This document shows positions 14,484 through 42,106 of a DNA stretch of 64,000 bases, piece after piece. Below the pieces are notes generated by a model. The model searched no databases. It saw only the letters and a list, made by a program, of their open reading frames with translations, and was not told the origin of the DNA. Every line of letters begins with the position of its first letter. Position 1 is the stretch's first letter. Location of the stretch: positions 1 through 64,000 of the forward strand of contig JACPWY010000054.1 in the NCBI GenBank assembly GCA_016196825.1. The letters run 5' to 3'. The translations under genes and the position numbers were made by a program. The stretch is from Deltaproteobacteria bacterium (lineage in GTDB: Bacteria > Bdellovibrionota > FAC87 > UBA2466).

Positions 14484-16442
14484 CTACGCCCGACGCACTC
14501 CACTCGTGGCCGGCTGGAGGACGGGGAGCTCGACGGTGAAGCGGGTGCCTCGGCCCACCGCACTCTTCACGCTGACCTCTCCTTGATGCTTCTGGACAAG
14601 ACCGTAGGCGATGCTTAACCCCAATCCGGTCCCTTGGCCCGTCTTCTTCGTGGTGAAAAAGGGATCAAAAATCTTGTCGATGATGGACGCCGGAATCCCT
14701 CGGCCGGTGTCCTCAATTTCAATGAACACGCGCCCATTTTCCGCTCGCGTGCGAATCCAAATCTCACCACGGCCATCGATCGCCTGGGCTGCGTTGGTGA
14801 GAAGGTTCATGAAGACCTGATTGATCTGGGAAAGGTTGCATTCTACCAGTGGTATCTCGCCAAATTCCTCATGAATACTGATTCGGTTTTTGAACTCAGC
14901 TCCAAGGAGCCGCAACGTAGTGCGGATTCCCTCGTGGATGTCAGCTTCCTGGAAGCTCGACTCGTCCATACGAGAGAACGTACGCAGCCCCAAGACGATC
15001 TCCTTGGTCCGGTCGGCACCGTCGAGGCAGCTCCTCGTCAAATCCTCGACATCCTTCAAGAGGTAGTCGAGCTCAATCTCCTTCTCGAGAGCGGTGATCT
15101 TCCCCTGAACCTCCGGTGGAAGCTTTCCGAGGGCCGACTGGTAAGCCAGGATGAGGCGTTTGATCTTCTCGAGGTATTCGAGCAGGTGATGCATATTCGA
15201 GTAGATAAAGGCAATCGGATTGTTGAGCTCATGGGCCACACCAGCCACGAGCTCTCCCAGTGAAATCAATTTCGCGGACTGAACCAAATGGGACTGGGTG
15301 TCTTTTATCTCCGTGTTCGCTTTATGCAACTCCTCAAGCTTGATTTCGAGAGCTCTCTTGGCGGCTCCGACGTTACGGATCATCTCATTAAAGGATCGCA
15401 CCAAATACTCGATCTCATAGGTCGAATCGATCGGTGGAATCTGCTCCACCCGCCCAGTCTTCACTCGCTTCATCGCGTTCACCAGGATCTCGATAGGTTT
15501 CACCAGGCGCTGGGAAAAAAGAAAAATAAGAAGCGTCGATACGAGAATCAGAAAGAGAGTACCGTAAATCGTATTGACCTTGAGCTGTGTGAGAGAAGCG
15601 TCAAGCGATGTCATGGACAGAAAGAGGGCGAGGTAGGCCCAGTCTCGTTTCTTTCCTTGGAGAGCAGGAAGATCGTAGAGATAGACCGCGAATCGGGTCC
15701 CGGCGAGTTCGAGCAACGAGGGCCCCGGCTTGTCGCGAATCTGTTCGAGTGAGGAGAGAGCAATTTTGTTGAGGACAGACTTAGGAATGGCAAACGTGGC
15801 GCTCAGCGGAGCAAGATTTCGCCCGAGAATTGCAATGTCCACCTGGCGACGATTTTTGAGCTCCTGAAGGTCACGTGCTGTAAATCGGTACTGCTCCTCG
15901 AGAAAGCCATAGAACCGATTCTTATCCTTGAGCTCCATTCGCATCAGGATCGTGAAGCCCTCCCCGCCCTCGGTGGGGTAGCGCTCGAGCGTCTCGCCGT
16001 GCGTAAGGAGATAACTCTTAGCCTCTTTGGAAAGATAGGCGATCTGGTTCCAGCTCTCATCCGGTTTGCGCTCAGCGACCAACTTCCCAGCTGTCGAATA
16101 GACTCGCACTCCCACCCTTGTGCGGACGGAATCTAGGATCTCCTCGACACGACTCGTATTTTCGAGCGCTACTCCCGATAGCAAACGATTGGAAGTGCTG
16201 AAGCTCTTCGCCTCACGATAGAGATCGGCCTCAAGCTTGTCGATTTCCGAAATAATCGCGTCTCGCTCTGAATCGGCGCGGCGCTGGAGTGTCTCACGGA
16301 CACTGTCCTCGAATAGGCGGGTAGCGTACAGACTGATCAATGTCGCCGGGATGACGGAGATGGGAATGAAATAGATCGCGAGCGACGTTTTGAGCGAACG
16401 GGTATTGTAGCGCAACCCCTGAATGACTTTAGACCAATTCAA
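14484..16442 (-). CDS. Membrane sensor histidine kinase (sensor-HAMP-HisKA-HATPase)
   Basis: Two TM helices (about residues 18-40 and 290-310) bracket an extracytoplasmic sensor of about 250 residues (CHASE/double-Cache-like in size). HAMP follows (311-363), a short coiled coil, the H-box SLGELVAGVAHELNNPIAF (His about 404), the N-box FMNLLTNAAQAI, and G boxes IEDTGRGIP and GTGLGLSIAYGLVQKH. It is an ordinary, apparently active kinase; no response regulator is adjacent. I place the start at TTG 16442, just after the barrel gene, because the frame upstream is antisense-like noise; the start is uncertain. It is downstream of the MCE operon on the same strand. Confidence 0.85.
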   Translation of the reverse strand: MNWSKVIQGLRYNTRSLKTSLAIYFIPISVIPATLISLYATRLFEDSVRETLQRRADSERDAIISEIDKLEADLYREAKSFSTSNRLLSGVALENTSRVEEILDSVRTRVGVRVYSTAGKLVAERKPDESWNQIAYLSKEAKSYLLTHGETLERYPTEGGEGFTILMRMELKDKNRFYGFLEEQYRFTARDLQELKNRRQVDIAILGRNLAPLSATFAIPKSVLNKIALSSLEQIRDKPGPSLLELAGTRFAVYLYDLPALQGKKRDWAYLALFLSMTSLDASLTQLKVNTIYGTLFLILVSTLLIFLFSQRLVKPIEILVNAMKRVKTGRVEQIPPIDSTYEIEYLVRSFNEMIRNVGAAKRALEIKLEELHKANTEIKDTQSHLVQSAKLISLGELVAGVAHELNNPIAFIYSNMHHLLEYLEKIKRLILAYQSALGKLPPEVQGKITALEKEIELDYLLKDVEDLTRSCLDGADRTKEIVLGLRTFSRMDESSFQEADIHEGIRTTLRLLGAEFKNRISIHEEFGEIPLVECNLSQINQVFMNLLTNAAQAIDGRGEIWIRTRAENGRVFIEIEDTGRGIPASIIDKIFDPFFTTKKTGQGTGLGLSIAYGLVQKHQGEVSVKSAVGRGTRFTVELPVLQPATSGVRRA

Positions 16443-16455
16443 TATTTTTTTCTTT

Positions 16456-16971
16456 TTAAAAGTACCAGAGCATGCCCATGCCGGCGTAGGTGCCGTTGGC
16501 AAGATCCACTAATTTGAAGAGGTACTCGAGCTCAAAATAGAATGACAGACCGGTGTGGTGCATGAACTGCACCCCAAAGGCCGGCGAAAAAAGAGTGATG
16601 TCGAAGCCGTTGCTCAGATCTTGCCCCGGCGTGAGGAATTTATTGGCCAGAACACTTGGTCGTATGTTTCGCTCAGAAGTTCCGTCGGTCCACCAGCGGG
16701 CGAGTGAGGCGGAGAGATAGGGGCTCACCCACTGACCCGAGATGTAGTATCTGGCCTTCACCATCGCAGTCGAGTAATCCACGCCAGTGCCAAATCCACC
16801 GCCCATACTCATCGTCTCGCTGAGATTGATGTCCATTTCAATCCCCATCATCGACAGCTGACCGCCGCCGCAGGCGCCAAAACCAAACCTGCGTTCGAGC
16901 CGCATCTCCTCCACTTTCATCGAACCCATTGCCAATGCCGAGAACGACAATGCCACTGCGAAAAGCTTCAT
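16456..16971 (-). CDS. Outer-membrane beta-barrel-like protein
   Basis: The 171-residue protein has a signal peptide (MKLFAVALSFSALAMG), alternating hydrophobic strands (MVKARYYISGQWVSPYLSAS, GVQFMHHTGLSFYFELEYLF) and a C-terminal aromatic residue (GMGMLWYF). These are typical of small OmpA/OmpW-like barrels. GGAGG precedes the start. It lies 15 bp after the MlaD-like gene and may be the outer-membrane end of that transporter, which is inference from position. Confidence 0.65.
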   Translation of the reverse strand: MKLFAVALSFSALAMGSMKVEEMRLERRFGFGACGGGQLSMMGIEMDINLSETMSMGGGFGTGVDYSTAMVKARYYISGQWVSPYLSASLARWWTDGTSERNIRPSVLANKFLTPGQDLSNGFDITLFSPAFGVQFMHHTGLSFYFELEYLFKLVDLANGTYAGMGMLWYF

Positions 16972-16986
16972 AGGACCTCCAGAATG

Positions 16987-17754
16987 TCAGAACACCCGGG
17001 CGCGAATGCCTTCCTCTTGGAAGAACTTCTTGAGAGTCGGTTTATCGATTTCATGGGCTCGCTCGATGAGAACCATCAATCGATCAAAGAATTCCTCACC
17101 CTGAGGGCCGCGAATTTTTTCGGTCATGAATCGCAGATCGCTTGTGATCTGCGATAGATTATCGATAACCTGCCCAATTTTCTTACGATCGGATTTTTCC
17201 AAAACCTTGGCGGTGTCATCCATCACACGAGCGAGCTGGTTGAGAAAGCTCGTCACGCTCTTCTCATTCTGTTCGAGAAACTCCTGGACCCGGCCAAATA
17301 CCCCATACCCCTGGCTCAACAGCTGATCGATCCGTGGGGGATCCACCGCCCGAATCCGACTCCCGGGTGGAAGGACCGGAGACTCTACGCTGCCTGGGCT
17401 AATCTCGATATAGCGCTCCCCAATGATGCCCGCGATGTTAACGAAAAAGCGCGAATCCTCGTGAATCACCGCAAGAGCTTTGCGCGCGACGGAGATCGTC
17501 ACCTCGATGGCTGTGCGATCCATGCCCTCCACCCCACTCAAAAAATCGATTTTTTCCACCCGCCCCACCTTCACGCCGCTCACGCGGACCGGCGAGCCCA
17601 CCTCTACGCCACCGGCGAACGAAAAACGGAGAAAGTATTGCGGGTTGGACTGCACAAAGCTGAACGATCCCATGAGCCAAAAGAAAAGCATGGCCATGGC
17701 AATGGCCAGAATAACGAATACACCAACCCAAAAATCGCGGGACTTGGTTTCCAT
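16987..17754 (-). CDS. mlaD: MCE-domain protein (MlaD-like) of the lipid transporter
   Basis: Substrate-binding component of an MCE/Mla transporter. One N-terminal TM helix (DFWVGVFVILAIAMAMLFFW) is followed by an MCE domain (about 36-115: YFLRFSFAGGVEVGSPVRVSG, VKVGRVEKIDFL, GIIGERYIEISPG). After it comes a helical tail with amphipathic repeats (LLSQGYGVFGRVQEFLEQ, DRKKIGQVIDNLSQI), as in MCE proteins that build hexameric tunnels. It is separated from the permease genes by 220 bp holding a hairpin element, so expression with the upstream genes may be altered. Confidence 0.88.
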   Translation of the reverse strand: METKSRDFWVGVFVILAIAMAMLFFWLMGSFSFVQSNPQYFLRFSFAGGVEVGSPVRVSGVKVGRVEKIDFLSGVEGMDRTAIEVTISVARKALAVIHEDSRFFVNIAGIIGERYIEISPGSVESPVLPPGSRIRAVDPPRIDQLLSQGYGVFGRVQEFLEQNEKSVTSFLNQLARVMDDTAKVLEKSDRKKIGQVIDNLSQITSDLRFMTEKIRGPQGEEFFDRLMVLIERAHEIDKPTLKKFFQEEGIRARVF

Positions 17755-17779
17755 GTGAGTAAAAGAGGGGAAAATCTTA

Positions 17780-17956
17780 AGAGCCTATCCCAAAATCCTT
17801 TCGTAGGGAGGGGCGAGAAAAAATGGACCGGATCGAAGACGCACAAGGGAGGCCCCGGAGGCGTGCCAATAGGCACGCTGAGGACGCCGACCGCGGAGGA
17901 CGAAGAGCCGGGCCATTTTGACCGCTCCGAGTAGAAAGGATTTTGGGATAGGCTCT
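17780..17956. repeat. 177-bp palindromic element with GGAG-hairpin core (copy 1)
   Basis: Perfect 23-bp terminal inverted repeats (17780-17802 and 17934-17956; outer sequence AGAGCCTATCCCAAAATCC). Internal sequence also pairs imperfectly (AAAATGG-CCGG region). The centre is GGAG (17857-17860), stem GCGTGCC, loop AATA, stem GGCACGC, then TGAGGAC. It shares about 80% of its right half with the element at 41928-42106. It is inserted inside the MCE operon between the second permease and mlaD. Confidence 0.85.
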
Positions 17957-17974
17957 CAGAGAGTACCTGTTACA

Positions 17975-18775
17975 TTATATCGCGTACCACAACCAGCTCA
18001 CTAGGAAATCTAGGAGGATGACGAGCACGCTGTTTTCGACCACTGTGCGGGTGGAAGCACTGCCCACCCCTTCGCTTCCACTCGACGCGTTAAGGCCACG
18101 GAAGCAAGCCACAATCGGTATTGTTAGCCCAAAAAGCGCCCCTTTCACAACACAGATCGTCAGGTCACCCGGCTCGGCAAATAAAAAGAGGTGCGTCAAG
18201 AAGAAGCGCGGCGTGAGGCCGAGCGATTGCGAGGTCGTAAACGCAGTAATGAGAAGCGCCCCACCGGTCGCAAGACAGGTGAGACAGACGGAAGCGATCA
18301 CACACCCCAGGACGCGAGGCACCACGAGAAAATCGATCAGGTTCACGCCACAAAGCTCGAGGGCGTCGAGTTGGCGGGTGGATTTCATTGTCGCTATCTC
18401 CGCGGTGATCGCAGCCCCCACTCGTGATCCCAAGAGCATCGCGGTGACGACAGCCCCGAGCTCTCGCAAAACCAGAAGGCTCGTGAACGACGGGATCATC
18501 GCATCCTGTGGCACGATGAGTCGCAAATGAAACGCGAGTTCGTAAATGAGAACGGCCGTCAAAAAGGCCAGCGACAAGACCGCCGAAGGCGTGCCCAAGA
18601 CGCCCATGATCCAGATGTGGTGGATGACACTCTCGGCCCTCCCACGCAGCGATTGAGAAACGAGATGAGTGAGCGTCCCTCCGAGAAACCAAGTGAAACG
18701 GCCTAACCCGGCGATGCCGCCGTTCACCCGACGGCCCACCATGTCGAGACTGTGTATTGCCGCGCTAATGGCCAA
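17975..18775 (-). CDS. mlaE: MlaE-type permease, second of two
   Basis: MlaE-family inner-membrane permease, 266 residues with about five TM segments. Family motifs are MIPSFTSLLVLRELGAVVTAMLLG and then SRVGAAITAEIATMKSTRQLDAL, where Glu of AEIATM and QLDAL match the conserved AELGTM...QIDAL loop facing the ATPase. It overlaps the first permease gene by 11 bp. The two permeases differ clearly in sequence, so a heteromeric membrane domain is likely, as in YrbE-A/B of actinobacterial Mce systems. Confidence 0.88.
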   Translation of the reverse strand: MAISAAIHSLDMVGRRVNGGIAGLGRFTWFLGGTLTHLVSQSLRGRAESVIHHIWIMGVLGTPSAVLSLAFLTAVLIYELAFHLRLIVPQDAMIPSFTSLLVLRELGAVVTAMLLGSRVGAAITAEIATMKSTRQLDALELCGVNLIDFLVVPRVLGCVIASVCLTCLATGGALLITAFTTSQSLGLTPRFFLTHLFLFAEPGDLTICVVKGALFGLTIPIVACFRGLNASSGSEGVGSASTRTVVENSVLVILLDFLVSWLWYAI

Positions 18776-19550
18776 TCCCCCTTAAAAAATGGCTGATGAT
18801 CCAAGAGATGAAAAAATCGGCCACGATGATCCCGACGAGACTATTGATGGCCGCTTTGCGCACCATCTTGCCGACACCCGCGGCCCCACCCGTCGCCCAG
18901 TACCCCTGATAACAGGCGACGCTTCCGAGCAAAGTACCAAAGGCAAGACTCTTGAAGCCCCCCGTCAGAAGGCTCTCGAGCGAAACAAATTTGGGAATCT
19001 GACTGATGTAGTGCCAGGGGTTCGTTCCAAAGTTGAGCCAAGCCAAAGCACTCCCGCCGCCAACAGAAACGATCAGGCCGATCGTCAAGAGAAGAAAGCA
19101 AGAGATGATCGCGGCGATGAGGCGGGGGGCGACGAGCATTCGGATCGGATCCACACCAAGACAAGTCAGTGCGTCGATCTGATCGGTCACGCGCATCGTG
19201 CCCAGAACAGCCGTCGTCAGCGCCCCCACCTTGCCGACGAGAATGAAGCCAATGAGGACCGGCCCCACATTTCGGATCGTCACGCTCGTCGCCACGCCGC
19301 CCACGGCCCCCTCGGCGCCAAAATTGCGCAGTTGCAATTCGATCTGGATCGCCATGATGGCGCCCACGAAAAATCCACTCACCAGAGTGGTCGGTATGGC
19401 CTTCACACCACATTCAAAGAGTTGTTCCGTGAGAAGCCGTGGAGGGACACCCTCTGTCGCCACCAATCGTAAAGCCTGGAATCCAAACCGCAGGACGGCC
19501 CCGAAGTTCTCAACTTTCGATTTGAGATTCTCAGTGAAGCGGGCGAGCAT
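18765..19550 (-). CDS. mlaE: MlaE-type permease, first of two
   Basis: A 261-residue MlaE homologue: TLVSGFFVGAIMAIQIELQL, ATSVTIRNVGPVLIGFILVG and KVGALTTAVLGTMRVTDQIDALTCLGVDPIRMLVAPR. In the coupling loop the usual AELGTM is AVLGTM, so the conserved Glu present in the second permease is missing here. It overlaps ATPase B by 20 bp upstream and the second permease by 11 bp downstream, so all four genes form one translationally coupled unit. Confidence 0.88.
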   Translation of the reverse strand: MLARFTENLKSKVENFGAVLRFGFQALRLVATEGVPPRLLTEQLFECGVKAIPTTLVSGFFVGAIMAIQIELQLRNFGAEGAVGGVATSVTIRNVGPVLIGFILVGKVGALTTAVLGTMRVTDQIDALTCLGVDPIRMLVAPRLIAAIISCFLLLTIGLIVSVGGGSALAWLNFGTNPWHYISQIPKFVSLESLLTGGFKSLAFGTLLGSVACYQGYWATGGAAGVGKMVRKAAINSLVGIIVADFFISWIISHFLRGIGH

Positions 19551-20274
19551 CGGCCTCCTCCAAGAATTGTCGAATAAGAGGGTGGTTCGAGGATCGGATC
19601 GTCTTCGGCGTCAGGTCGGCCGCGATATGAGCGCCCTCGAGAAGTAAGATTCGGTCGGCCACCGCGAGGGCGCAATGCATGTCGTGAGACACGACCCAGA
19701 TCGTGCGGCCCGCGCGCCCCAGCCCTTCGATGAGCTGATTGATTCTGGCCGTATTGATCGGATCGAGCCCCGTAGTCGGCTCGTCGAAAAGGAGCGCCTC
19801 ACTCCCCACAACAAGTGCGCGCGCGACACTCACCCTCTTTTGCGTGCTGTGGCTCAGCTCGAGCGGGTAGCGCTTCAAAAGACTGAGGTCGAGACCCACC
19901 TGGGCGATCTCACGCTCAATCAGGCCCCGCTCGTTGGAGCGTGAGGCCGCGAGTCCCATCGCGCGAATCCCTAGAGCCAAATTGTCATAGATCGTCATCG
20001 AGTCGATGAGCGCCGGATTCTGAAAAATGAGTGAGCACCGCCGCCTCAGTCCCATCCATTCCTTTTCATCAAGCTCCGCGGTCGATCGTCCATCGAAACG
20101 GATCTCTCCGGCGTCCAGTTTCAGAAGCCCGACCAGACATTTCAGGGAGACGCTCTTCCCTACGCCCGATCGCCCGATCAGAAAAACGATCTCCCCCTTC
20201 TCAATAGTCAGCGACATCTTTTCGAGAACCGCCTGGGCTTCAAATCGCTTGGTGACATTCACAAACTCAATCAT
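19531..20274 (-). CDS. mlaF: MlaF-type ABC ATPase B (canonical Walker motifs, degenerate signature)
   Basis: A 247-residue ATPase with Walker A GRSGVGKS (34-41), Q-loop Q85 (SLIFQNPALI), Walker B LLFDEP (161-166) with catalytic E165, and H-switch H197 (VVSHDMH). The ABC signature is LSHSTQ (140-145) instead of LSGGQ. On its own it could not build a normal composite site in a homodimer. The preceding ATPase A has the opposite set of defects. It overlaps ATPase A by 4 bp and the first permease by 20 bp. Confidence 0.88.
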   Translation of the reverse strand: MIEFVNVTKRFEAQAVLEKMSLTIEKGEIVFLIGRSGVGKSVSLKCLVGLLKLDAGEIRFDGRSTAELDEKEWMGLRRRCSLIFQNPALIDSMTIYDNLALGIRAMGLAASRSNERGLIEREIAQVGLDLSLLKRYPLELSHSTQKRVSVARALVVGSEALLFDEPTTGLDPINTARINQLIEGLGRAGRTIWVVSHDMHCALAVADRILLLEGAHIAADLTPKTIRSSNHPLIRQFLEEADARPLH

Positions 20275-21020
20275 GAGATGGGCCCCTCCGTCCGACTCTC
20301 CAGAAACTGACGAATGTACGGATCGTCTGACTTTTGAAACGCTTCATTGGCCCCGAAGAAGTGCCCACGACCCTCGACCAGGAACAGAACGTGGTCCGCG
20401 AGCCGACGCACATTGGCCGTGTCGCTCGTCGCCAAAACAATCGATGCCGAGCCCCGAAGGCCCGCGATGAGATCCAGAATCTCTCGGCCGGTGACCGGAT
20501 CCAGACCCGCTGTCGGATCATCGAGTATTAGCATCCGCGGGCTCAGAACCAAGGCGCGTGCGAGCGCTAACCGCTTCTGCATTCCGCCGCTCATTTCGTG
20601 GGGGAATCGGCCGCGTGCCCACTCAAGCCCCACACTCGAAAGAGTCGCCACCGCCCGCTCCCCACCCAAGCCTTTGTGACCCGCGTGAGCGATCACAAAT
20701 TCCAGGCATCCCTCGGCCGTCAGCCAATCGAAGTTCCCCAATGGGTTCAGCATGACCCCAATCTGTCGACGCCAAGCAACGAGTTCCGTCCGCGTGAGGG
20801 TCAGCAGTTCACGACCACCCGTGCGGATCGCCCCTCGATAATCACTCTCCAGCGTCGCCAGCAGCCGAAGCAAAGTCGACTTTCCACAACCGGCCGGGCC
20901 GGTCACCACCGTGATTTGATTCTGTGGCGGCGTGAATGAGATGGACTGTAAAGCCACACGACCGCCCCAGGAAAATCCCACGGAATCCATCGAGAGCGAA
21001 CAGTCTGTCATCAGCGCCAT
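20271..21020 (-). CDS. mlaF: MlaF-type ABC ATPase A (canonical signature, degenerate catalytic residues)
   Basis: First gene of the MCE operon, 249 residues. Walker A GPAGCGKST (41-49) and signature MSGGMQ (143-148) are intact. The Q-loop glutamine is replaced by N92 (VMLNPLG), the catalytic Glu after Walker B is D168 (LILDDP), and the switch His is S199 (LATSDTANV). Paired with ATPase B this gives one fully canonical site (B Walker/A signature) and one fully degenerate site. It is divergent from the arginase-family gene. Confidence 0.88.
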   Translation of the reverse strand: MALMTDCSLSMDSVGFSWGGRVALQSISFTPPQNQITVVTGPAGCGKSTLLRLLATLESDYRGAIRTGGRELLTLTRTELVAWRRQIGVMLNPLGNFDWLTAEGCLEFVIAHAGHKGLGGERAVATLSSVGLEWARGRFPHEMSGGMQKRLALARALVLSPRMLILDDPTAGLDPVTGREILDLIAGLRGSASIVLATSDTANVRRLADHVLFLVEGRGHFFGANEAFQKSDDPYIRQFLESRTEGPIS

Positions 21021-24245: not shown

Positions 24246-24583
24246 ATCCGACGCACTTCGAAGGCTCACCACATCTGTGTCACGTCGACAAAAAATATTT
24301 CAGAATCTTAAAGAATCAAACGTGATCATTCAAAAACTGAAGAAAATAATTCTATCCACAGATTGTGGATAGAATTAGTAACAGCAGGAAATCACAGCTG
24401 ATTAATTATTAATAATCTCCTTCTAGGCCACGCAACGATCTCGACCAGACACAATGAATCAACCCTATAGATTTCAAATGCTTAATACTGTGGAGGGGAT
24501 TGTGGCTAACTCAATTCCAATCCTTCATTACCCCCCTTTGAAGGGGCCCCAAACGGATCGCTATAAGAAGAGTTTTGTTAAAT
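24246..24583. other. AT-rich intergenic region before dnaA, possible oriC or dnaA control region
   Basis: This 338-bp gap is much richer in A+T than its surroundings. It holds AT-only or AT-rich tracts (AAAAAATATTTC near 24289, TTAATTATTAATAAT near 24400) around a palindromic pair of DnaA-box-like nonamers (24347-24377). A further small hairpin, CCCCTT-TG-AAGGGG, lies near 24533. The features fit an origin or an autoregulated dnaA promoter. Only two boxes are visible, which is few for a full origin. Confidence 0.45.
24347..24377. promoter_or_regulatory. Palindrome of two inverted DnaA boxes
   Basis: TAATTCTATCCACA (24347-24360), spacer GAT, TGTGGATAGAATTA (24364-24377): perfect 14-bp arms. 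Each arm contains CTATCCACA, one base from the strong DnaA box TTATCCACA. It lies about 200 bp before dnaA. Confidence 0.6.
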
Positions 24584-25975
24584 ATGATGCCCATAGATTG
24601 GAATGCTGCGATTTCGGTAATGCGCGATGCGTTGCCGCCCAATCAGTTCAAGAATTGGGTCGAGCCGCTGAGCCTTCTCCGCTGCGAGGAGAATCGTGTC
24701 ATTTTGGGCGCCCCCAACAAGTTCCACGAGGACTGGGTTCGGGAAAACTACTCGGTCCAGTTGAGCAGTGCTCTCGAGTCCACTTGCGGGCGCCAACTTT
24801 GCCTGGAATTTGAGGTTTCTCAACAGAATCAGGAGTCCGCACTGGGTGAGGGGGCGATGCCGGAGATCGTGATTGCGCCTCCTTCGCGGCCGTTGCTCAG
24901 GGTGGTGGAGCCGTCGGCAGAGCCGCGGAAGGCGATCCCGCCCAACATCCCGCCGTCCAAACACCCGTACTACCCTCTCGAATCCAACCGAATGGCCTAT
25001 CAATGTGCAATGCACATGATTGAGACAGAGGCACAGGATTTTAACCTTCTCATCATCGAAGCCGGCATTGGCATGGGGAAGACGCATCTGATGTCCCACA
25101 TCGCCGAAGGGCTTTACGCCCGCGATCCGATGCTCCGGATCCACTACACCAACACCGAGGCCTTCACCTCTGAGATGTACCAAAGTTATCAAAACCAAGG
25201 CCACCGGGAGTTTCGCAAGAAATATTGGCAGGATATCGACGTGCTCCTTTTCGACGATCTCCACATGATCCCCAAAAAGCAGCGGGCCCAAGAGGAGCTC
25301 TACCATGCCTTCAACGAAATCATTTCGCACGGCGGGCGCATCGTCTTCGGCACCTCGCTCAACGTGAGAAAACTCGAAGAGGTCATGCCTTCCCTGAAGT
25401 CACGGCTTGAGTCGGCCGTGAGCGCTGAAATCCGTTTCCCGAGCTTTGATGATCGCACTCGGCTCCTCGCCCAGATCGCGCTCCACCAACAGCTCGCCTT
25501 GGACGACCTCACACTGCGCTCCATGGCGGACAGGGGCCAAAAGGATATTCGCGACCTGATCTCCACGCTCATGCGGGTGCACCTGCAGGCGCAACTCGCG
25601 AACCGGGCACTCGACACTCACTATCTGGCGGAGATTGGCTTTGCGATCGACACCAAGAAAGAGGCCATCACGCTCGATGAGATCGTGGGCCTGGTAGAGC
25701 ACACCTTTGGCGTGGGCCGCGACGACCTTCTTTCAAAAAGCCGCATGAGCTCAGTGAACTGGGCGCGGCAGGTGGCGATGTACCTCGCGCGCGTATTCAC
25801 GCATCTCTCGATGGAATCGATCGGAAACTACTTCGGACGGGATCACGCCACCGTGGTGCACGCTTACCAGCGCGTTGCCGACGGCATGGAGCAGCAGCCC
25901 ACTAAGCGCTACGAGGTCGCCCATCTGAAACAGAAACTTCAATCACGGGCGCCAAAAAACCATGTCCCTTTTTAG
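24584..25975 (+). CDS. dnaA: Chromosomal replication initiator DnaA (divergent)
   Basis: AAA+ initiator of about 463 residues. Domain I (DWNAAISVMRDALPPNQFKNWVEPL) is followed by a linker and Walker A EAGIGMGKTH (about 160-168), where most DnaA have GGxGxGKTH. Walker B is LLFDDLHMI. Sensor I is GTSLNVRKLEEV rather than the usual TSDRPP. The domain IV signature is GRDHATVVHAYQRV with RQVAMYLAR before it. No dnaN, recF or gyrB follows; hemJ and xseA do. Start at ATG 24584 or 24587, since both lead into the domain I motif. It could be the main DnaA or a divergent paralogue. Confidence 0.88.
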   Translation: MMPIDWNAAISVMRDALPPNQFKNWVEPLSLLRCEENRVILGAPNKFHEDWVRENYSVQLSSALESTCGRQLCLEFEVSQQNQESALGEGAMPEIVIAPPSRPLLRVVEPSAEPRKAIPPNIPPSKHPYYPLESNRMAYQCAMHMIETEAQDFNLLIIEAGIGMGKTHLMSHIAEGLYARDPMLRIHYTNTEAFTSEMYQSYQNQGHREFRKKYWQDIDVLLFDDLHMIPKKQRAQEELYHAFNEIISHGGRIVFGTSLNVRKLEEVMPSLKSRLESAVSAEIRFPSFDDRTRLLAQIALHQQLALDDLTLRSMADRGQKDIRDLISTLMRVHLQAQLANRALDTHYLAEIGFAIDTKKEAITLDEIVGLVEHTFGVGRDDLLSKSRMSSVNWARQVAMYLARVFTHLSMESIGNYFGRDHATVVHAYQRVADGMEQQPTKRYEVAHLKQKLQSRAPKNHVPF

Positions 25976-41859: not shown

Positions 41860-41927
41860 GGCAGGCGGAGGCGTTTTCGCAGGGTGCCGTGAGCGAGCGA
41901 GCGGAGCATTTCTCTCCAGCCACACTT

Positions 41928-42106
41928 AGAGCCTACCCCAAAATCCCCTCTACTCGGCGCGGTCAAAATGGCCTGGCTCTTCGTCCTCCGCGGTCGTCAT
42001 CCTCGAGCCGTACCTATAGGCGCACCTCCAGCGCCTTCCTTGTGCGTCCTCGATTCAGGTCATTTTGCCACGCCCCTTCCGACGAAAGGATTTTGGAAGT
42101 GGCTCC
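41928..42106. repeat. 179-bp palindromic element with GGAG-hairpin core (copy 2, inverted)
   Basis: Ends AGAGCCTACCCCAAAATCCC and GAAAGGATTTTGGAAGTGGC match those of the 17780-17956 element with a few changes. On the minus strand the centre reads GGAG (42026-42029), stem GTGCGCC, loop TATA, stem GGTACGG, then CGAGGAT, and the flank GACCGCGGAGGACGAAGAGC is shared almost exactly with copy 1. The right end is partly decayed. It lies 480 bp upstream of the RAYT gene. Confidence 0.8.

Follow-up and report, generated by a model that had tools for sequence, protein, structure and literature searches.

How might an MCE transporter be driven by two ATPases, each of which lacks what the other retains, and is such an arrangement a property of a lineage or of one genome? 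The question is raised by an operon on the minus strand of the stretch of DNA analysed here (64,000 nucleotides, hereafter the window), where the genes follow one another in the order A, B, E1, E2, M and O:

20271..21020, minus strand: ATPase A, an ABC ATPase with a canonical signature and a degenerate Walker side (N92, D168, S199); from the open reading frame, Pfam ABC_tran, a residue check and orthologues
19531..20274, minus strand: ATPase B, an ABC ATPase with canonical Q85, E165 and H197 and the degenerate signature LSHSTQ; from the open reading frame, Pfam ABC_tran and a residue check
18765..19550, minus strand: permease E1 of the MlaE family, with Val115 in place of the coupling-loop Glu; from the open reading frame and Pfam MlaE
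17975..18775, minus strand: permease E2, MlaE family, TEQ replaced by TRQ; from the open reading frame and Pfam MlaE
17780..17960, minus strand: an inserted MITE-like element that parts E2 from M, outside the conserved operon
16987..17754, minus strand: MCE protein M, with an N-terminal transmembrane helix, one MlaD-type MCE domain and a helical tail of ~110 residues; from Pfam MlaD and predicted structure
16456..16971, minus strand: O, the sixth gene, a small outer-membrane protein with a predicted 8-stranded beta-barrel and C-terminal WYF

The window operon and its two ATPases

All six reading frames are intact. The first four genes overlap (A/B by 4 bases, B/E1 by 20 and E1/E2 by 11), and a gap of 220 bp separates E2 from M. 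The permeases score 4e-62 and 4e-53 against PF02405 (MlaE) and M scores 2e-17 against PF02470 (MlaD), while A and B both match PF00005 (ABC_tran). The ATPases are separate proteins of 247-249 aa that share 31% identity, and the two permeases share 30%. With an MlaE permease, an MlaD-type MCE domain and an ABC ATPase in one operon, the locus qualifies as a member of the MCE (Mla-type, type VIII) systems; in the absence of biochemistry or a phenotype, the movement of lipid between membranes by this transporter is inferred.

The original prediction, made from the window alone, attributed complementary defects to the two ATPases, and every residue that it named lies exactly where it was placed, as do both reading frames on the minus strand. 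ATPase A combines the Walker A motif GPAGCGKS and a canonical signature with N92 at the Q-loop, D167-D168 and S199, and ATPase B combines GRSGVGKS, Q85, E165 and H197 with a signature that starts at L140 and has lost its glycines. The positions that matter, with their states across the family described below, are as follows:

20745..20747, minus strand: N92 of A, replacing the Q-loop Gln; private to the window genome
20577..20594, minus strand: signature MSGGMQ of A (from M143), the half that would complete the canonical ATP site; from SGGM in 96/96 readable A proteins and column entropy
20517..20519, minus strand: D168 of A, replacing the catalytic Glu (family: D 62, E 34, S 1)
20424..20426, minus strand: S199 of A, replacing the switch His (family: N 74, S 18, T 2, G 1, H 2)
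19840..19857, minus strand: degenerate signature LSHSTQ of B (family, first Gly: Y 81, F 18, H 2, L 1)

Because A is without the pair of catalytic Glu and switch His and B is without the signature Gly, only an A·B heterodimer can form a canonical ATP site. The same logic bears on the idea that the operon encodes two homodimeric transporters, A2 working with one permease and B2 with the other. Two permeases and two ATPases are indeed encoded, as that idea needs; however, neither site of an A-A dimer would have Glu/His and neither site of a B-B dimer the signature, there is a single MCE protein to serve them, and the gene order is fixed, so that we regard this arrangement as extremely unlikely.

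Conservation of the complementary split in Bdellovibrionota

An E1 alignment was run against 291 Bdellovibrionota genomes, with E below 1e-66 taken to define a strong orthologue, and E1 orthologues were found in 134 of the 291, counted among the matches listed. We read 104 distinct operons, and A was readable in 97 of them, which gives 97 A/B pairs. The order A-B-E1-E2-M is retained in nearly all operons read, and tandem MlaE pairs occur in nearly all of the 15 genomes searched in the window's order, where the loci read again run A-B-E1-E2-M. A scan of named genomes with an MCE alignment returned matches only from Bdellovibrionales, Bdellovibrio, Oligoflexia and related MAGs, that is, Bdellovibrionota and allies, and two plasmid MlaE loci (Azospirillum and Ruegeria) each have one ATPase gene adjoining one permease gene. 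In one genome of the window's order (G001) the heteromeric operon occurs twice, each time on its own contig (L037, L038).

Homologous operons in which both ATPases were canonical would have refuted the original prediction; we looked for them in the 97 A/B pairs and saw none, and every pair shows the same split. On the A side the signature SGGM is invariant, and the Glu and His positions are occupied by D/N (52 proteins), E/N (22), E/S (10), D/S (8), E/T (2), D/G (1), D/H (1) and S/H (1); the combination E/H was found in none of the 97 readable A proteins. Both A proteins that bear the His are without the Glu, indicating that lineages arrived at the same state via different residues. On the B side, Glu and His are present in 104/104 and the Q-loop Gln in 102/102, and the first signature Gly is absent from all 102 readable proteins, replaced by Tyr, Phe, His or Leu; in six operons including that of the window both glycines are gone (HS, FS, FA, YV). 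The pattern that defines heterodimeric ABC ATPases with one degenerate site (one ATPase without the Glu/His pair, the other with a deviant signature) is thus met in 97/97 orthologous pairs, which is more than chance. Judged from these alignments, the complementary split is a conserved design across the phylum and not a one-genome oddity.

Canonical relatives provide the background for this pattern. The ATPase of a single-permease MCE locus from the same order has the full set of motifs (Q, SGGM, E, H) in 13/13 genomes, and E. coli MlaF is likewise canonical (LSGGMARR, Glu, His). In the tree, A and B each form one clade (support 99/84 and 100/98), apart from the canonical MlaF-like ATPases.

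The distribution of constraint agrees with the split. Column entropy, averaged over 96 A/B pairs and expressed in bits, is lower at the signature in A (0.19 vs 0.57 in B) and lower in B at Walker A (0.43 vs 0.67), the Q-loop (0.37 vs 0.57), Walker B (0.13 vs 0.40) and the switch (0.23 vs 1.35), with whole-protein means of 1.75 for A and 1.43 for B. The constrained half-sites, the A signature and the B Walker side, are therefore those of the canonical composite site. Nor does A depend on adjacency to be kept: four genomes in which it does not adjoin B have it all the same and with N/D as usual, at a distance of 1.7 to 4 kb in three cases, whereas G217 has the two genes on separate contigs, and it was found in 5/5 genomes checked whole. 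An apparent absence of A from four loci (L166, L170, L150, L099) proved to be an artefact of the short stretches read, A being found in all four genomes.

These observations also weigh on a simpler scheme in which B hydrolyses ATP by itself, as a homodimer whose variant signature is active, and A, a pseudo-ATPase without catalytic function, serves for regulation. Such a scheme draws on the retention of all hydrolytic residues in B and on the existence of active importers with one signature Gly replaced: a lone Gly-to-Tyr change at the first signature Gly occurs in working ABC ATPases of the LivG/UrtD type, and since it is tolerated there, the defect of B may be only partial in lineages with LSYG. 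Yet a regulator would not need the signature that A keeps in 96/96 proteins while that of B varies more, the window copy of B and five others have lost both glycines, and A is never missing where whole genomes were checked. We therefore consider the scheme improbable, and return to a heteromeric motor as the preferred reading.

Not everything seen in the window belongs to the conserved pattern. Two distinct MlaE permeases had been predicted, one of them without the conserved Glu of the coupling loop, and in the window this is so, E1 having Val for the usual Glu of AELGTM; as a general trait it does not hold, because the Glu is present in 102/103 E1 proteins and the Val is found in this one alone. 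Similarly, the Q-to-N change in A is confined to 1/92 readable A proteins, and E2 with TRQ for TEQ stands alone among ~100 aligned E2 proteins. The Q-to-N change in A and the Glu-to-Val change in E1, private as they are to one genome, fall outside the conserved pattern. In E. coli MlaE, Ala mutants of Arg97, Glu98, Lys205 and Asp250 each lack an SDS/EDTA phenotype (PMC7790496), and the equivalence of Glu98 to the Glu of E1 is not established. No branch of the tree is longer than that of the window A (2.04), and the window copy is the most derived, fast-evolving member of the operon family; with three private losses, it might be partly relaxed. Carried further, these features, together with the MITE between E2 and M, could be read as an operon in decay whose split residues reflect random relaxation. 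We find this very unlikely, as the six frames are intact and the split, common to every orthologue in the phylum, is older than any decay, which could account only for the private extras.

A proposed asymmetric motor

Taken together, our analysis makes it highly likely that the operon encodes a heteromeric MCE lipid ABC transporter composed of A-B, E1-E2 and M, in which one canonical site hydrolyses ATP, as the original prediction had held. Across the phylum, the motif pattern very probably denotes a conserved MCE motor of heteromeric build, in which one composite site is canonical and the other degenerate. The A·B heterodimer itself is inferred from the logic of the motifs, gene linkage and conservation, without physical evidence, and the dimer composition, one-site hydrolysis, the pairing of ATPases with permeases, the lipid cargo and its direction are all likewise inferences.

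We propose that A and B would form an obligate heterodimer below an E1/E2 permease heterodimer, which would feed or drain a probably hexameric MCE ring formed by M; the helical tail of M would extend into the periplasm. The canonical site, made of the Walker A, Q-loop, Glu and His of B and the signature of A, should hydrolyse ATP, and the degenerate site, made of the Walker side of A and the Tyr/Phe/His signature of B, is expected to hold ATP with slow or no hydrolysis and so to serve as a lasting hinge, like that of TM287/288 and CFTR. By analogy with TM287/288, hydrolysis at the site of B would push two different permeases asymmetrically. Some hydrolysis at the degenerate site remains possible, since 34/97 A proteins retain the catalytic Glu. 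At the far side, O, whose gene comes next in roughly half of the operons that we read, is a likely partner.

How the ATPases sit under the permeases is suggested by a natural gene fusion. In one genome (G167, L164:1939-3651) B and E1 form one 570-aa frame with a linker of ~70 residues, which suggests that B lies beneath E1 and hence A beneath E2, a placement inferred from this one fusion. Mutual information among A, B, E1 and E2 in 87 operons (Neff ~76, 967 columns) gave no clear signal for an A-B or an ATPase-permease interface. A long E1 frame in G040 was set aside as a fusion, as it overlaps B in a different frame; among the loci read, the only real B-E1 fusion is that of L164.

Relation to known systems and the outer-membrane side

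The MlaFEDB transporters of E. coli and others share with the window operon MlaE-type permeases, MlaF-like ATPases and an MlaD-type protein with a single MCE domain. In contrast, MlaFEDB is built of identical pairs, MlaF2 (a homodimer; PMC7790496) and MlaE2, whereas the window-type operon is heteromeric in both and its ATPases have complementary defects. Mla in the strict sense, with a single MlaF and MlaE and the partners MlaB and MlaC, is thus not matched by two ATPases and two permeases, and the window operon showed no gene for MlaB, MlaC or MlaA; it has instead the gene for a small outer-membrane beta-barrel. The minimal Mla of Veillonella parvula (MlaEFD, a transenvelope bridge; PMC10665443) likewise has no MlaA, MlaB or MlaC, and its helical-tail MCE protein has been proposed to span the envelope, but it has a single MlaE and MlaF and an MlaD of 419 aa vs 255 aa for M. 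Mycobacterial Mce1 shares the permease heterodimer (YrbE1A/YrbE1B), an MCE ring and a post-MCE helical extension; it differs in that MceG is a homodimer under YrbE1A/B and the MCE proteins are six different ones (PMC9882608), while the window-type operon has differing ATPases and one MCE gene.

A split into one canonical and one degenerate site, with one subunit lacking the catalytic Glu, is shared with TM287/288 (where it is Asp), BmrCD, TAP and CFTR. In TM287/288 hydrolysis takes place at the consensus site while nucleotide remains bound at the degenerate one, which combines the Walker B Asp with a deviant signature (PMC5216877). These exporters, however, have transmembrane domains fused to their ATPases, a defining trait that A and B do not meet as separate subunits of an MCE system with permeases of the MlaE family; the likeness is convergence with heterodimeric ABC exporters, not membership.

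The MCE ATPases that we found in the literature are all homodimers, as had been expected, and no description of a heterodimeric one was found in the open-access literature searched. A phylum-wide motor with one site would contrast with these, and would represent a separate evolutionary origin of the split known from CFTR and TAP. A natural one-site MCE motor would reveal the number of ATP hydrolysis events that power lipid transport and whether the permease halves have different jobs, and the A/B asymmetry can be broken, unlike in homodimeric Mla. The system also lies in a phylum of bacterial predators where envelope lipid traffic has been little studied. The predicted 8-stranded outer-membrane barrel of the sixth gene, the natural B-E1 fusion and the retention of A even when unlinked are new here; the original prediction had missed both the sixth gene and the phylum-wide conservation.

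O follows M in 46/84 loci with enough sequence past M. It has a signal-like N-terminus and a C-terminal aromatic-Phe beta-signal (YYF, WYF, YFF), its model is an eight-stranded barrel (mean pLDDT 91) resembling those of OprF, Ail, OmpX and OmpA, and seven members match Pfam OMP_b-brl. From linkage only, we infer that O may be the outer-membrane partner of the transporter. The predicted structure of M, for which Mce1 and MlaD are the best matches and Mce1 ranks first, comprises an N-terminal helix, a confident MCE domain and a helix tail of ~110 residues; pLDDT in the tail is mostly below 65, so that bridging of the periplasm is not demonstrated. We entertain, without yet favouring it, the broader idea that Bdellovibrionota possess a distinct MCE class in which an asymmetric A-B motor, E1-E2 and an MCE ring, joined in many lineages by a dedicated outer-membrane barrel, make up an envelope-crossing lipid conduit with one-site hydrolysis, separate from the ordinary Mla-type system.

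The MITE-like element, one copy of which separates E2 from the MCE gene, is ~181 bp long. Its terminal inverted repeats match perfectly over 23 bp, and it forms a very stable hairpin (-93 kcal/mol, z -8.2). A second copy lies at ~41925-42105, the window genome holds ~20 near-full-length and ~20 partial copies, and three further genera of this order show weak traces of it. Downstream of O lies a sensor histidine kinase (14484-16502, minus strand) whose family is found near the operon in 12/32 loci compared, and a DnaA-like protein of 466 aa, identified by eye, is encoded nearby at 24575-25975 on the plus strand.
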